26,218 nucleotides of DNA. Source: a virus. Each line of letters opens with the position of its first letter. Positions within the stretch are counted from its first letter, which is position 1. Location: positions 1 through 26,218 of the IMG/VR virus record IMGVR_UViG_3300043410_000170; one strand, 5' to 3'. Below are positions 1 through 26,217 of the stretch, piece by piece. A program made the position numbers and the translations under genes. The notes below the pieces were generated by a model. The model was not told where the DNA came from. It worked only from the letters and a program-made list of their open reading frames with translations, and made no database searches.

Positions 1-410
1 TGATTGATAGTCCATGCGCCACTACAGTTGACGATGCCACCACCGCCAGCACGAGCAATAACATCAACGTTGAGGTTAGTGAAGGTAACGTTCTCGGTAT
101 ATGTACCTGGATGTAAGATAACAGAACTACCGATATTACCAGCCGCTGTTAATGCCGCTGAAATCGTAGCAAACGGTTTGAACTCACCGCCATTGTTGGT
201 ATCCGAGCCACTAACTGGATCTACGTGGAACTCACGTGTGTATTTGAAGAACGGTTCACTAAGTGTAATGATAGCATTGCTACCGTCTTTGGTGAATAGT
301 TTCTTGTCTGTCATATTCAAGGCAATTTCGCCTGTTTGAATATCTGCGGCTAGAGGTACTTTACCAGCTACTGAACTACGCTTGTGCTGATAGGGAAGTT
401 TTTGTGACAT
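1..410 (-). CDS. Tail fibre protein, N-terminal part (cut by window edge)
   Basis: An open frame starts at ATG 410 and runs off the left edge without a stop, giving the first 136 residues. The start is preceded by AAAGAAAGAAACAT, the same A-rich ribosome-binding site used by neighbouring fibre genes. Residues 1-50 (MSQKLPYQHKRSSVAGKVP, then a TGEIALN and KLFTKDGS pattern) resemble the N-terminal virion-attachment segment common in phage tail fibres. From about residue 63 the pattern GSDTNNGG, FATISAALTAA, ILHPGTYTENV is typical of the first coils of a right-handed parallel beta-helix (pectin-lyase-like/DUF1565). I infer a fibre or tailspike with a beta-helical shaft. Whether it is an enzyme cannot be told because the C-terminal part is missing. 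It lies 23 nt after the preceding fibre gene, probably in the same operon. Confidence 0.75.
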   Translation of the reverse strand, partial: MSQKLPYQHKRSSVAGKVPLAADIQTGEIALNMTDKKLFTKDGSNAIITLSEPFFKYTREFHVDPVSGSDTNNGGEFKPFATISAALTAAGNIGSSVILHPGTYTENVTFTNLNVDVIARAGGGGIVNCSGAWTIN

Positions 411-21704: not shown

Positions 21705-22039
21705 AGCGAGTTCTCTACTTCCTTCTTGAATGGTGCCGCCTGTTAGTTTCCCAAGAGACTAGTTACCTTATAGATTGCTCTCATTAGTACCTTTGTAGGT
21801 AACATTGAATCTTCGGTAAGTAGTTTATTGCCTGTTTCATCAAGGATAAGGTCTTTGACGATTTCGATTGCGTTTGCTTGGGATGCTTCAGTTTGTTGTG
21901 CTAGTTTCATAAAGATTTCTAGCGGCTGTCTGTCCCAGGTATGAAATGTGATTGCTTCGCCATACTCTTTAACGGTGTCTTTATCATCTAAGACTAATTC
22001 TACGAGTTGTGGTTTGCTTGCTAGTGTGCTGAGTTTCAT
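21501..22039 (-). CDS. Tail assembly chaperone GT fusion by -1 frameshift, 179 residues
   Basis: Predicted product of ribosomal slippage: 22039 to 21746, then re-reading base 21746 and on to 21501. Translation of the 98-codon G gene reaches the heptamer GGGAAAC (G-GGA-AAC in frame) right before its TAA stop. A -1 slip continues as [14 protein letters not shown] and then in frame into the 67-residue downstream frame ([20 protein letters not shown]), with no stop between. This is the lambda G/GT arrangement, in which G coats the tape measure and the T extension recruits tube protein; both are absent from finished virions. The position just ahead of the tape measure cluster fits. The frame continuity and slippery site are read directly; frequency of slippage is unknown. 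Confidence 0.85.
21743..22039 (-). CDS. Tail assembly chaperone G, 98 residues
   Basis: Short acidic protein ([19 protein letters not shown], then [20 protein letters not shown]) with the 'L..KPQLVE..LDD..(I/V)..YGE.I.F...DRQ' pattern of phage tail assembly chaperones. It lies upstream of the tape measure and ends at a slippery heptamer, as lambda gpG does. ATG 22039 overlaps the stop of the upstream homing endonuclease (ATGA), yet it keeps its own strong ribosome-binding site AAAGGAAAA inside that gene, so its translation need not depend on the endonuclease. Expected role: binds the tape measure protein and keeps it soluble until tube polymerisation. Confidence 0.8.
21746..21752 (-). promoter_or_regulatory. 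Programmed -1 frameshift slippery site GGGAAAC
   Basis: On the minus strand the codons read TTG GGA AAC TAA; the heptamer G GGA AAC fits X-XXY-YYZ exactly and differs from lambda's GGGAAAG only in the last base. It directly precedes the zero-frame stop, and the -1 frame is open into the T domain. I did not find an obvious strong stem-loop immediately downstream. Confidence 0.85.
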
Positions 22040-22743
22040 TTGTTTTCCTTTTGTGATTTGTTTAGTAAGAATGAAAATCCCATATTTCCATTCTTAATTC
22101 TATTTTTAATAGTTCCTCTATCGACGCCATAATGTTTTGCGGCGATAGACATATTACTAAAAATTCCTTCTGGAGTAAGAACTGGCTTGCTTCTTATCTC
22201 CGATAATAATCTCTTTGACTTTTCGGTGTGCTTTCTTCCTCTACTCTTGGCTCCGATTTTTCTTTTAGTTTCTTCACTTTTTGGACCAGTGGATACTCCA
22301 ACTCGTGAGGCTGAGATAGCTTTTTTGTGCTCTTCTGACTTAGGCTGAGATAAACTATTAGAGTATTTAGCGACTCTGGAATCTGTTTCTTTTGTCTTGC
22401 CTTTATTCCACGGAGTTCTACCAATCATTTTTTGAATTGATTCGTCTGAAAATTTAAAATTAACTGTCCCCTCACCACCGTCAGTCATATTACGAAGAAT
22501 ACCAGTTGCTAAATCTTTGCGTCCGTAGTAGGCGATCATGTATTTTTCAATTGATATTGCTTTTTCTTTGGTGAGGTCAGAAAGAAGAATGACTATTCTA
22601 TCTTTTGATTTTGGTAGCATATCTGTGCCATTTGTCCTACGATGACAATCATAGGCACGAGAGCCCTTTCCCATCCCTATGTAATAGGGAGTGCCATCTT
22701 TTCTAAGATAGGCATATACATAATGTTGATTAACTTGCTTCAT
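22036..22743 (-). CDS. GIY-YIG homing endonuclease with NUMOD3 and IENR1-type DNA-binding repeats, 235 residues
   Basis: Free-standing homing endonuclease that would nick or cut an unoccupied site and spread by repair. The GIY-YIG nuclease domain spans residues 6-95: YVY (8-10), YIG (21-23), Arg29, His34, probable catalytic Glu66 (ISIEKYMI) and Asn85. A linker GRTPWNKGK (108-116) leads to NUMOD3-like repeats ([30 protein letters not shown]). Residues 190-225 are a NUMOD1/IENR1-type helix-turn-helix ([20 protein letters not shown], then KNRIKNG). Flanking genes look intact, so it is not in an intron. No Shine-Dalgarno sequence precedes ATG 22743; instead a promoter ends 7 nt before it, suggesting a leaderless mRNA. 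Its stop overlaps the chaperone start. Confidence 0.9.
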
Positions 22744-22750
22744 TAATTAA

Positions 22751-22779
22751 ATTATTTGTTAATATCTTTCCCCTGTCTA
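22751..22779 (-). promoter_or_regulatory. Candidate sigma70-type promoter for the second homing endonuclease
   Basis: TAGACA (22779-22774), 17-nt spacer, AATAAT (22756-22751): five of six matches in each box. The -10 box overlaps the stop of the small upstream gene, and 7 nt separate it from ATG 22743, so the expected transcript begins at or next to the start codon. TTCCC (22785-22781) and GGGAA (22772-22768) pair around the -35 box. AT-rich surroundings make chance -10 matches likely, so the spacing match to the other endonuclease is the main support. Confidence 0.55.
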
Positions 22780-22940
22780 AGGGAATTTAAGAGAGCTAGT
22801 CTGAAAGACGACTTAGCCTTCAACTGTTTTACTGTGTTTTCAATTTCTAATAGCATTGCTTTGGCTTTTGCTTCATCAGCAATAAGGGATGCTAGTATTT
22901 CACCTTCATCAGTTAGCCATTGTTTTGATTTATTATCCAT
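22752..22940 (-). CDS. Small hypothetical protein, 62 residues
   Basis: Not recognised. The protein is charged and almost wholly helical in style (ASLIADEAKAKAMLLEIENT, then VKQLKAKSSFRLALLNSL), possibly a short coiled coil. I chose ATG 22940; an in-frame GTG at 22952 would add four residues but abuts the U-run of the terminator. Neither start has a clear ribosome-binding site. It lies between the tail-tube terminator and the homing endonuclease promoter, so it would be expressed only from terminator read-through or an unseen promoter. A plus-strand frame over the same bases (22756-22959) has no ribosome-binding site and no recognisable sequence. The size and place are compatible with a small tail assembly helper, but that is a guess. 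Confidence 0.45.
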   Translation of the reverse strand: MDNKSKQWLTDEGEILASLIADEAKAKAMLLEIENTVKQLKAKSSFRLALLNSLRQGKDINK

Positions 22941-22957
22941 ATTATTTATCACTTATT

Positions 22958-22990
22958 AAAAAGGAGACTATCTTGTGAATAGCCTCCCTT
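22958..22990 (-). terminator. Intrinsic terminator after the tail tube gene
   Basis: On the minus strand GGAGGCTAT (22987-22979) pairs over 9 bp, with one G-U, with ATAGTCTCC (22971-22963) around a 7-nt loop, followed at once by TTTTT (22962-22958) and TTAATAA-like AT-rich sequence. Outer A-U and G-U pairs can lengthen the stem. It starts 22 nt after the tail tube stop. It probably lowers transcription of downstream tail genes relative to capsid and tube. Confidence 0.88.
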
Positions 22991-23011
22991 GCCTCCCCAT
23001 CCCTAGGAAGA

Positions 23012-23518
23012 TTAACCTGTTGTGGTTGTAGTCATTGCGCCATCAACTGCGATAGTTAGTGGCGTTACCCATACTGGAGCATCAGGTGATGTTGTAGGGG
23101 CTAATGACGAGATGAAGCCTTGACCTACAGTGATACGATCTGTTGTACCAGATGTATTGCCTGTCCAGTAGATTGTGAAAACAACTGGATACTTGTCTGT
23201 AGATAAGGTAGCAAGACCAATCTTAGCAGCAGTTCCACTGGTAGCAGTACTATCACCGAAATATACTTTGTCGTCAATAACGATGTTAGTAGAGATTTCG
23301 TTATCAGCAGGTGTAGACAACTTGCGTGTATCAACATCTGTGAATGTAGTGTAACTGTAGACACCAGTTGAGTTAGTGATGGTCAAATCCTGAATGAACG
23401 GGATTGTTAGACCAGTAGTATCTGCCGCCACTGGTGTAGGTGTATCAGCATTTCGTTCACCGACTTTGATGACGATAACTGGTTGGGTTGTTGTTGTATT
23501 GGTTGTAATACGTGCCAT
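23012..23518 (-). CDS. Probable major tail (tube) protein, 168 residues
   Basis: I assign this as the tail tube subunit from position (after the tail terminator-like gene, before chaperone and tape measure), size, Thr-rich beta-strand composition, and expression signals: the clearest Shine-Dalgarno site in the window (AAGGAG) and a strong terminator right behind it. The chain begins MARITTNTTTTQPVIVIKVG and ends WVTPLTIAVDGAMTTTTTG; strands alternate with short loops and no catalytic residues stand out. Hundreds of copies would stack as hexameric rings around the tape measure. At 168 residues it is shorter than lambda gpV (246), lacking any added Ig-like C-terminal domain. Family membership was not recognised from sequence alone. 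Confidence 0.65.
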   Translation of the reverse strand: MARITTNTTTTQPVIVIKVGERNADTPTPVAADTTGLTIPFIQDLTITNSTGVYSYTTFTDVDTRKLSTPADNEISTNIVIDDKVYFGDSTATSGTAAKIGLATLSTDKYPVVFTIYWTGNTSGTTDRITVGQGFISSLAPTTSPDAPVWVTPLTIAVDGAMTTTTTG

Positions 23519-23524
23519 TATTTT

Positions 23525-23530
23525 CTCCTT
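23525..23530 (-). promoter_or_regulatory. Canonical Shine-Dalgarno site AAGGAG of the tail tube gene
   Basis: AAGGAG lies 6 nt before ATG 23518. Most other genes here use AGAAAG-type sites, so this core-type site marks the gene as highly translated, in keeping with a major virion protein. Confidence 0.75.
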
Positions 23531-23541
23531 GTGGTTGGCTG

Positions 23542-23940
23542 TTATTGAAATTCAATGCGCTTAAATTCGAAATCGTATGTTCTATACTCTGCTCTATTTA
23601 AGTAATCTTGTGCCATAGTGTAGTCACGCTCGTGATAGCCATCTAAGAGTTCGTTGTCTGATACCATTCCAATAACAGCATCAATAACTTCATCTCTACG
23701 GTTATCACCTTGAAAGGTAACAACCAGTATTCTCATAGCATCTACACAAGTGTAGATATGACTCTCATTTTGTGTGCCTAATCTATATGGTACACGCTCA
23801 CTAGTTGCTGGATCATTGATGTAAACACCGTGACGAACATTCTTCATGTCTGTTGGGAATTCATCAAAGAACTCAACACCTTTTACTTTCGCTTTCAGGT
23901 ATTTTGTTACTTGATCGGAAGTGATTAGTGGACGTGCCAT
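23542..23940 (-). CDS. Probable tail terminator / completion protein, 132 residues
   Basis: It lies between a connector-like gene and the tail tube gene, the usual place of the tail terminator (lambda gpU position). The 132-residue length is right. The sequence has an alpha/beta mix: helix QVTKYLKAKVKG, strands (MRILVVTFQGDNRRDEVIDA) and a C-terminal strand YDFEFKRIEFQ, compatible with the gpU-like fold but without a diagnostic motif that I recognise. Its start overlaps the previous stop by one base (TGATG), so translation is coupled. Expected role: caps the finished tail and forms the interface to the head. The assignment is mostly positional. Confidence 0.55.
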   Translation of the reverse strand: MARPLITSDQVTKYLKAKVKGVEFFDEFPTDMKNVRHGVYINDPATSERVPYRLGTQNESHIYTCVDAMRILVVTFQGDNRRDEVIDAVIGMVSDNELLDGYHERDYTMAQDYLNRAEYRTYDFEFKRIEFQ

Positions 23941-24458
23941 CAGAAGTACCTACGACCAGTGTTAAAGAAATTCTGATCTGCCTTCATGTTCTCTTCTAAC
24001 TTAGAGATAATTCCATCACTGTTTAGGTCATAGAAATTACTCAAGTTGATTGCTTTATCCCATTCGTCATGGAAGCGTTGTCTAGCATGTTTGTAGTTAC
24101 GTTCGTCAACTTCATTGATGTTGGAAACGTCACTTACTAAACTGCGATAAAACTCTTCTACTGCTTTAAATGTCTCTAATCTTTTTAGGATTTGACTTGA
24201 CTTCAATAACTTAGAGGGATCAAAAGCAGTTACCATCTTTCCTTCTGGAGTATTCTTGAAGTACCAAGCACCGAATGTTTGCTGAACATACTTAGGCCAC
24301 CAGCCAAACTCCATCATTTGAAGTAACTCTTGACTGGCAATCTGGAAATAAGTGTCCCAATCAGCACTCAAGGAATCAGCACGGCGCTCCGCAGCTGGAT
24401 CATAAAATATGATATCATCAACGGTTGCTGTAGAGATTCTTTGATATGCTAGGCTCAT
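23940..24458 (-). CDS. Probable head-tail connector protein with EF-hand-like loop, 172 residues
   Basis: After the capsid gene (apart from the inserted endonuclease) and before the tail terminator-like gene, where adaptor/connector proteins lie. The sequence is mainly helical (DWDTYFQIASQELLQMMEFG, LKRLETFKAVEEFYRSLVSD), consistent with helical-bundle adaptors of the HK97 gp6 class, though longer than those. Residues 144-155, DLNSDGIISKLE, fit the 12-residue EF-hand/dockerin calcium loop at positions 1 (D), 3 (N), 5 (D), 6 (G), 8 (I) and 12 (E). Only one loop is present. ATG 24458 has AAAGAAAGAAAATAA in front. Connector identity is positional; the calcium-site pattern is read from the sequence. 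Confidence 0.55.
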   Translation of the reverse strand: MSLAYQRISTATVDDIIFYDPAAERRADSLSADWDTYFQIASQELLQMMEFGWWPKYVQQTFGAWYFKNTPEGKMVTAFDPSKLLKSSQILKRLETFKAVEEFYRSLVSDVSNINEVDERNYKHARQRFHDEWDKAINLSNFYDLNSDGIISKLEENMKADQNFFNTGRRYF

Positions 24459-24493
24459 TTATTTTCTTTCTTTAGATCATACTTATCGAATTA

Positions 24494-25189
24494 TTATTTT
24501 GTGTTGTTTGTTGACTCTCGTTGTGGATAAATCCAGTAACGAGTGCCGTCTTCTCTGATTGCCATTTTTCTACCAGTTGCTGTAGCTGAAACTTTAGCAG
24601 CACTCTTCTTGCCGTTTTCAGCGGCTTGAGGATTGCTTTTACCTTTCCAATGAGAGGGTTTGCCTGTCATTGACTTAGATTGTTTTGCTTTTTGTTCATC
24701 AGATACAACAGCGCCGTATCTAGGGTTATTTACTCCGCTGTTTTGTTTTGCTTTTCTGGCTTTGGCTTCTTCACTCCACTTAGCCCCCTTGGCTCTACTT
24801 GGCTTACCCTTCATTTCTTGTCTCTTGGCTTCACGGCGTTCTTCTGTCCAGCCAGATTGCTCTGCTGTTAGTTTTTTGCCCTTGTTCCACGGAGTAAGAA
24901 CTAATGGGAATGGTCTACCTTCGTTATTGTGTTGGTTGAACGATCTAGGATCATTTCTAGCATCAAAGAGTTGTAAAATTTCTGATTCCAGATTTAACAT
25001 GTCTTCTTTACTACCAATATCAATAATGTGCTTAGACCATTCTTGTGGGTTGGCTAAGATAAGTGGTTTGACTAAACGACTACTACAAATATAACCATCG
25101 TTAGGATGACTATTCTTGGCAGTTCTTGAACCTACATACCATTTCATAGTTGGTAAGTGTGTCCATTTATAAACATAACAAGTATTCAT
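24494..25189 (-). CDS. GIY-YIG homing endonuclease with NUMOD3-like repeats, 231 residues
   Basis: Free-standing homing endonuclease between intact capsid and connector genes. I chose ATG 25189; the in-frame ATG at 25198 lies inside the -10 box of a perfect promoter and would not be in its transcript. Numbering from 25189: YVY 5-7, YVG 18-20, Arg22, probable catalytic Glu68 (LNLESEIL) and Asn85/88. The linker TPWNKGK (99-105) is shared with the second endonuclease, followed by Lys-rich NUMOD3-type repeats (WSEEAKARKAKQ, VSDEQKAKQSKSMTGKPS) and a closing REDGTRYWIYP. The nuclease domains of the two genes differ clearly, so these are separate acquisitions rather than a recent duplication. It probably cleaves capsid-region DNA of phages lacking the insertion. 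No Shine-Dalgarno sequence is present. Confidence 0.88.
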   Translation of the reverse strand: MNTCYVYKWTHLPTMKWYVGSRTAKNSHPNDGYICSSRLVKPLILANPQEWSKHIIDIGSKEDMLNLESEILQLFDARNDPRSFNQHNNEGRPFPLVLTPWNKGKKLTAEQSGWTEERREAKRQEMKGKPSRAKGAKWSEEAKARKAKQNSGVNNPRYGAVVSDEQKAKQSKSMTGKPSHWKGKSNPQAAENGKKSAAKVSATATGRKMAIREDGTRYWIYPQRESTNNTK

Positions 25190-25196
25190 AGTAGTC

Positions 25197-25225
25197 ATTA
25201 TATCAGATTAGATTGAGAATGTCAA
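25197..25225 (-). promoter_or_regulatory. Perfect consensus sigma70 promoter for the capsid-linked endonuclease
   Basis: TTGACA (25225-25220), 17-nt spacer, TATAAT (25202-25197): all twelve consensus positions and the optimal spacing. It begins 3 nt after the capsid stop (TGA 25230-25228). Seven nt separate the -10 box from ATG 25189, so the predicted start of transcription is at or next to the start codon and the mRNA would be leaderless. Confidence 0.88.
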
Positions 25226-25228
25226 TCT
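25210..25228. repeat. 7-bp palindrome over the -35 box
   Basis: AGATTGA (25228-25222 on the minus strand), loop CATTC, TCAATCT (25216-25210). It includes most of the -35 box and part of the spacer and starts at the last base of the capsid stop codon. No U-run follows on either strand, so an intrinsic terminator is unlikely; a repressor operator or an RNA hairpin at the end of the capsid message is more plausible. Confidence 0.6.
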
Positions 25229-26217
25229 CACGCCACCACCTCAATGTTCACAGCACCGCCGCGACGACCGTCAGCAACGCCACTACCGAAGAAGCCAAGA
25301 CCAGTTACCCACATTTGTAGGCCACCAGGTTTTTCGCCTAATTTAATTTCTAGACCGGACTTGATAACGGTGTAGATACTATTATCACCGAAGTATGCGC
25401 CGACAAGAACGTTCTCAGCACTGCCACCTGCTACAGCACGTGATGCTGTAGATAGGAAACGTGTGAATACAACACGGCAGCCGTATAGGTTCTGAATGTT
25501 GCCAGTTGTTAGCAATTCGTTACCTAGATCACTAATGTTGTTGTTAACAGCACCGCCAGTCAATTCGCCTAAGAGACGAGACTGTGTGTATTGTGTGTCT
25601 AATACTACAACTGGTGTACCACTTAGACCGGCGTTTTGCCATACACTGCGAATGTTACGGATCAACTGACTAACAGTAGTAGCAGTGAAACCAGTAGTAG
25701 CAGTACCACCACTTGCGCCACTAGCACGTAGTTCCATAGCGCCTAGAGCACTTGGACGTGTGAAGCCGTCACTACTTGTAGAGTAGTTTGTATTGCCTGG
25801 GGTTGCCTTGAATGATAGGAACGCCTTAGCGACACGTTGGTCAACTTTCTCACTAAATGACTCGCCTAGTTCAGCACCGATAGAAGATGCTAGATCGAAT
25901 GCGGTTGTTTGTGCTAGGAATGCGTCGAAAGCGGTAGCAGCAACTGCTGGTGTAGCAGTGATAGTGCTTTGCTCGATTGCTGGGGTTTGTTCGTCAGCAT
26001 CGCCTTGAACTGAACCACTTGTAGCACTTGGATCATAATCTTGATATGAAAGTGGGCTGAACTTAGGAATCACATATGTTGTTCCTTGATTGATGGTAGC
26101 GACACGAGTAGCGTCAACTAGACCAGTAGATGCGTGGACAGCGCGGAGTGCGAAGCCAGCGATTGCTTTTTCAAACGAATTACTCTCTCCGTTTGAACCC
26201 GATAGCACATAAGCCAT
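25228..26217 (-). CDS. Major capsid protein, HK97-fold type, 329 residues
   Basis: Probable main head subunit. The chain (MAYVLSGSNGESNSFEKAIA, TINQGTTYVIPKFSPLSYQD) has an N-terminal arm, a middle with SFSEKVDQRVAKAFLSF and LIRNIRSVWQNAG (spine-helix style), the strand PVVVLDTQYTQSRLLGEL and a closing part NVLVGAYFGDNSIYTVIKSG, then GLQMWVTGLGFFGSGV typical of capsid P/A-domain ends. Size is right for an HK97-fold capsid without a long scaffold domain. No scaffold or protease is visible in the window. The ATG at 26217 is one base from the window end, so a start further upstream cannot be excluded and its ribosome-binding site is not seen. A perfect promoter for the next gene begins just after the stop. 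Confidence 0.75.
   Translation of the reverse strand: MAYVLSGSNGESNSFEKAIAGFALRAVHASTGLVDATRVATINQGTTYVIPKFSPLSYQDYDPSATSGSVQGDADEQTPAIEQSTITATPAVAATAFDAFLAQTTAFDLASSIGAELGESFSEKVDQRVAKAFLSFKATPGNTNYSTSSDGFTRPSALGAMELRASGASGGTATTGFTATTVSQLIRNIRSVWQNAGLSGTPVVVLDTQYTQSRLLGELTGGAVNNNISDLGNELLTTGNIQNLYGCRVVFTRFLSTASRAVAGGSAENVLVGAYFGDNSIYTVIKSGLEIKLGEKPGGLQMWVTGLGFFGSGVADGRRGGAVNIEVVA

Follow-up and report, generated by a model that had tools for sequence, protein, structure and literature searches.

Different expression modes are probable for two GIY-YIG homing endonuclease genes in one phage structural operon

Two free-standing homing endonuclease genes of the GIY-YIG type, here HEG1 and HEG2, appear to follow two expression modes within one phage operon: HEG1 brought its own promoter, and HEG2 would be a promoter-less gene that relies on the operon. 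This reading, drawn from sequence comparison, is given a probability of roughly 0.68. The window, that is, the whole stretch of DNA analysed, is a 26,218-base phage contig from IMG/VR. All genes of interest are located on its minus strand in the order capsid, HEG1, hc1, hc2, tube-like protein, p66, HEG2, p98 and the tape measure gene (hc1, hc2, tube and p66 to p98 are working labels assigned in this analysis). Promoter sites were scored out of 12 against TTGACA plus TATAAT, the sigma-70 consensus.

Two homing endonuclease genes in the structural operon

HEG1 (24494..25189, minus strand; 231 amino acids from its second ATG) lies directly downstream of the major capsid protein gene (25228..26217, minus strand), which was assigned to PHROG 267 major head protein and for which a profile search found no relative among genome contigs or phage records. 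HEG2 (22036..22743, minus strand) interrupts the 3′ end of p66 (22752..22940, minus strand), a small structural-operon gene whose tail was replaced on this insertion. HEG1 matches the PHROG 314 homing endonuclease (5.7e-20) and also contains NUMOD3; HEG2 matches PHROG 314, PHROG 15526 and NUMOD3, and the GIY-YIG motif is recognised in its alignment. The confident, N-terminal part of the predicted HEG1 fold is closest to the catalytic domain of I-TevI (probability 0.96, E 0.07), a comparison that covers HEG1 only, the predicted structure of HEG2 being too poor. Neither protein matched Pfam PF01541, and PDB sequence searches with both returned nothing useful. The combination of a GIY-YIG catalytic domain and a DNA-binding tail (NUMOD3), by which free-standing phage homing endonuclease genes are recognised, is found in both. 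Their sites are fixed and polymorphic for presence, being empty in L087, L088 and L091 and occupied in L001-L004 (HEG1) and L006 (HEG2). Judged from these features, HEG1 and HEG2 are two separate GIY-YIG homing endonuclease gene insertions in a phage structural operon, with putative homing activity.

HEG1 has a further in-frame ATG upstream (25196..25198, minus strand), located inside the -10 box as TATAATG. Since homologues beginning MKTAYVYKW or MTQAYVYKW line up with the ATG at 25189, the latter is the likely start, as the earlier note had also chosen; the ATG at 25198 is a poor candidate and an unlikely start for a transcript from the HEG1 promoter.

The promoter of HEG1

The earlier note, made from the window alone, had described promoter boxes with the same spacer and the same distance to the ATG at both genes, and these letters are as it gave them. 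At HEG1, the -35 box TTGACA (25220..25225, minus strand) and the extended -10 element TGA-TATAAT (25197..25205, minus strand) are both perfect and separated by a 17-nt spacer; TATAAT itself occupies 25202-25197, and the TG one base ahead of it makes the -10 extended. It is followed by the 7-nt discriminator GACTACT (25190..25196, minus strand) and then by the ATG at 25189, which would put the predicted +1 on the A of this ATG or at most 3 nt away. From this 7-nt spacing, leaderless translation of HEG1 is plausible. The lambda cI gene transcribed from PRM is a leaderless phage gene, and HEG1 is similar to it in that the predicted 5′ end coincides, or nearly so, with the start codon, although lambda cI is not a GIY-YIG gene.

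TTGACA-17-TGATATAAT is the window's sole perfect site, where shuffles would lead one to expect 0.03 copies of TTGACA-16..18-TATAAT over the 26 kb; seven related records (27.9-48.0 kb) also hold only one perfect site, which is the same HEG1 promoter in the contig of L001. HEG1 thus shows every property asked of a sigma-70 promoter, i.e. near-consensus boxes (12/12), a spacer of 16-18 nt, occurrence above chance and retention in homologues. Folding near the starts of HEG1 and HEG2 is not unusual (z -0.7 to +1.3), and no RNA hairpin hiding either start, as for I-TevI, was found there. A 7-bp inverted repeat, AGATTGA-cattc-TCAATCT, spans the HEG1 -35 box (window 25210-25228), and its version in L001 is 5 bp long (GATTG-acac-CAATC); this repeat is possibly, on weak evidence, a candidate operator.

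The earlier note had further contrasted both genes with the rest of the operon, stating that neither ATG has a Shine-Dalgarno (SD) sequence whereas nearly every structural gene does. The first half holds. The second is overstated: an SD core of at least 4 nt is present at about 7 of the 19 non-HEG starts (AAGGAG at tube, AAGGA at p98 and p67, and further cores at hc2, TMP, p204 and p159), and the remaining starts have at most a purine-rich AAGAAAG stretch.

Conservation among HEG1 homologues

HEG1 homologues with proteins 77-80% identical occupy the capsid/hc1 (capsid/head-tail) gap in four other contigs, L001-L004, and TTGACA-17-TGATATAAT-7-ATG is kept in 4/4 of them, giving five copies with that of the window. 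The -10 box and the discriminator are no more conserved than their 3′ neighbours, because the first 60 nt of the HEG1 coding sequence are already 95-98% identical across the same-site homologues. Since these homologues are close, their retention is partly due to recent common descent; indeed, the same-site copies (window, L004 and L001-L003) represent only two or three lineages. The -35 box is kept between diverged flanks: when L001 is aligned with the window, identity is 33% over the 9 nt preceding this box and 59% over the promoter spacer. On this alignment, the retained -35 amid changed flanks is stronger evidence for conservation of the HEG1 promoter than the -10 and discriminator are.

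In IMG/VR, the promoter-ATG element was recovered in exactly these same-site copies and at one unrelated locus. The latter, TTGACA-17-TATAATGACTACTATG before a DnaJ-like gene, is found in L247 (2245-2283) and L249 (5259-5297), two unrelated viral contigs (of 19 kb and of 121 kb) that do not differ in sequence at this promoter-like string. Mobility of the promoter-ATG module by itself was considered and rejected, as this lone extra match, in front of a DnaJ-like gene, is taken for a chance occurrence.

Outside the capsid site, the nearest HEG1 homologue, L093, located between the terminase genes (terS/terL), has TTGACG-17-TATAAT with 21 nt to the ATG, and L005 of the same family has ATGTCA-17-TATAAT with 26 nt. 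The distance of 7 nt from the -10 box to the ATG, which the earlier note had proposed to follow across relatives, is therefore a feature of the capsid-site clade that does not extend to L093 or L005; this leaderless geometry is present at none of the 44 HEG1-family and 34 HEG2-family starts (non-redundant) outside that clade. Within the HEG1 family, the IMG/VR scan found TATAAT 4-34 nt upstream of the start in the four capsid-site copies, L093, L005, L255, L258 and L259; the last three are without a -35 box, and two of them have the same sequence. As far as these sequences go, an own promoter is found in few branches of the HEG1 family, and the leaderless distance is limited to the capsid-site clade.

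A promoter is lacking in most HEG1-family members, whose start codons are next to the previous stop codon or overlap it. Coupling is taken to be common in the family because the end of the upstream ORF is no more than 20 nt away at 27 of 44 starts, and overlaps 17 of these 27. HEG1 of the window might likewise be translated by reinitiation on read-through capsid mRNA, or from a leader of a few nucleotides, its spacing being incidental. The frequency of coupling or read-through in the family and the 21-nt distance in the close homologue L093 speak for such a route. However, the 38 nt from the capsid stop to the HEG1 ATG exceed the distance typical of coupling and contain no SD, and the boxes together with the 7-nt discriminator are kept in all same-site homologues, which leaves reinitiation at HEG1 rather unlikely, if still worth considering.

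HEG1-family genes recur in the terS/terL gap of related phages (L222, L093), which is a second hotspot. In L099 (452-1108), and also in L100, a GIY-YIG domain is fused in frame to an apparent terminase small subunit, and the C-terminal half of this fusion resembles terS of L093.

Empty capsid sites

The empty capsid/hc1 sites of L087, L088 and L091 contain no HEG1-type promoter; they have a gap of 60-74 nt with a strong hairpin. This capsid-hc1 hairpin reaches -22.7 kcal/mol with z -2.4 in L087 (993-1052), and z -1.9 with a compensatory change in L088 (6988-7060). It is absent from all HEG1-bearing phages. As the empty sites have the hairpin and lack the promoter, the promoter arrived within the HEG1 insert and the hairpin was lost.

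The stretch from HEG1 to hc1 showed no terminator-like site, so that HEG1 transcripts probably continue into the head-tail genes. The HEG1 promoter could then be real and yet serve mainly, under selection at the level of the phage, in feeding the downstream head-tail genes after the insertion had removed a regulatory hairpin. Besides the uninterrupted path to hc1, the stable hairpin of the empty sites and its loss in HEG1 phages would agree with such a role, and inserted homing endonuclease genes are known to displace or introduce the promoters of their neighbours (Edgell et al., 2010; PMC2988022). Nevertheless, the promoter adjoins the start of HEG1 and not that of hc1, a near-consensus promoter likewise precedes the ATG of the homologue in the terS/terL gap, and both hairpin and promoter are missing from more distant empty relatives. 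A main role in feeding downstream genes is thus a tentative alternative to a promoter serving HEG1 itself.

Insertion of HEG2 in p66

The boxes claimed for HEG2 are TAGACA (22774..22779, minus strand) and AATAAT (22751..22756, minus strand), with a 17-nt spacer and 7 nt to the ATG at 22743, and reach 10/12. Each strand has 3 sites of at least 10/12 where shuffles give 9.1; such sites are if anything rarer than by chance and not enriched, so the HEG2 site is unremarkable on matches alone. Its position is less common: among 177 non-HEG gene starts in relatives, none has a site of at least 10/12 with the -10 ending 5-9 nt before the start. The local shuffle rate of 0.146 sites per 400 nt gives an estimated 0.002 or so per start; for about 20 starts together this amounts to roughly 4%. 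The rarity of this geometry is suggestive, not strong, and conservation must decide.

In L006, the nearest HEG2 homologue (same site, 79% amino acid identity), the box positions read CATAGA and AATAAA, and the best promoter site within 120 nt reaches only 8/12. The claimed -35 lies within p66 codons and is absent from L006 and from the empty p66 genes; the claimed -10 overlaps the p66 stop TAA (22754-22752). The exact HEG2 element has no other match in IMG/VR. By the properties that HEG1 shows, the HEG2 boxes do not qualify as a sigma-70 promoter: their score is 10/12, such sites are not enriched, and the element is lost in L006 and absent elsewhere. Most likely, they are a coincidence of AT-rich DNA. 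They might instead be a lineage-specific promoter, for which the rarity of the geometry at other starts speaks.

The earlier note had gone further, holding that both genes bring dedicated leaderless promoters of host type with identical geometry, which would give early expression independent of the operon. Both genes do share the 17-nt spacer, the 7 nt to the ATG and the lack of an SD, a geometry seen at no other gene start of relatives. Against such a matched pair, the HEG2 boxes are not kept in L006, their -35 is resident p66 sequence, the element is without match elsewhere, and the geometry recurs at none of the HEG2-family starts. That note had itself named boxes lost while the ORF is kept as what would tell against it, and L006 presents just this for HEG2. 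The claim of a promoter brought in therefore stands for HEG1, where it arrived as part of the inserted DNA and persists in close homologues, and falls for HEG2; the resemblance of the two is most likely coincidental, and a true pair is very improbable. That note's further proposals, early expression and function in varied hosts, are speculative.

Comparison with uninterrupted p66 genes points to another arrangement for HEG2. Intact p66 ends in NKSQKENK and a stop in L088, and in NKSPKENK and a stop in L087. In the window, p66 ends early, in DINK and a stop, and it is HEG2 that carries the final p66 codons (NKSQKENK and stop), together with the RBS for p98 and the same ATGA overlap with it (22036..22062, minus strand). 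The 8-nt gap from the new p66 stop to the HEG2 ATG (22744..22751, minus strand) has the same length in L006 and is a candidate reinitiation site. The heptamer AACAAAT occurs at both ends of the HEG2 insert (window 22036-22062 and 22754-22760). HEG2 is probably a cassette without its own promoter, placed in a string of coupled genes, and translational coupling is predicted for it.

Two proposed expression modes

The preferred reading combines these results. By comparison with the empty sites, HEG1 entered the capsid/head-tail gap as a cassette with a consensus sigma-70 promoter adjoining its start codon. Host RNA polymerase would start at the HEG1 AUG or within about 3 nt of it, yielding a leaderless or near-leaderless mRNA that may read on into the downstream head-tail genes. 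HEG2, on the same kind of comparison, entered the 3′ end of p66 without a promoter, creating a new p66 stop 8 nt before its AUG and taking over the last codons of p66 and the ATGA junction with p98; it would share the operon transcript, with ribosomes reinitiating at its AUG once p66 has been translated. A stronger version for HEG1, in which the cassette joins a host sigma-70 promoter directly to a leaderless start codon, is independent both of the phage transcription programme and of an RBS at the new site, and gives early-type expression, is rather doubtful.

Both modes, own promoter and coupling, are already known from the free-standing homing endonuclease genes of T4. Edgell, Gibb and Belfort described two groups of seven: one without promoters, in which several genes overlap the stop codon ahead of them, and one whose members have a middle or late, but never an early, promoter directly in front (PMC2988022). 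HEG1 is similar to segB, segE, mobB, segA, segG, mobC and mobD of T4 in being free-standing, in having the same orientation as its phage neighbours, and in the position of its promoter, which in such cases is the gap directly upstream or the 3′ end of the gene before (PMC2988022). It differs from them in its perfect promoter of the host sigma-70 type, its leaderless spacing and its lack of an SD, the T4 promoters being middle or late (PMC2988022). HEG2 and many HEG1-family members are similar to segC, segF, mobA, mobC and mobE of T4/Aeh1, which are carried on a polycistronic message and have start codons adjacent to, or overlapping with, the stop of the gene before them (PMC2988022); what sets HEG2 apart from these coupled genes is its place within the 3′ terminal part of p66, whose final codons and junction with the following gene it has acquired. 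For the HNH endonucleases of mycobacteriophages hidden in a methylase (the ShiLan insertion), translation without a detectable RBS, or leaderless translation, has been proposed (PMC11855218). HEG1 shares the lack of an RBS with the ShiLan case, but its 5′ end is predicted from a consensus promoter, whereas the ShiLan proposal was made without promoter analysis and for an HNH rather than a GIY-YIG enzyme (PMC11855218). In the literature, with limited coverage of subscription journals, no description of a leaderless GIY-YIG phage gene was found.

A single phage operon would thus display two routes by which homing endonuclease genes are expressed, namely bringing a promoter and plugging into the translation of a neighbour. 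Should HEG1 prove to have a leaderless, early transcript, this would depart from T4, whose promoters specific to homing endonuclease genes are of the middle or late class; what timing and host-independent translation contribute to the spread of these genes would then become testable.
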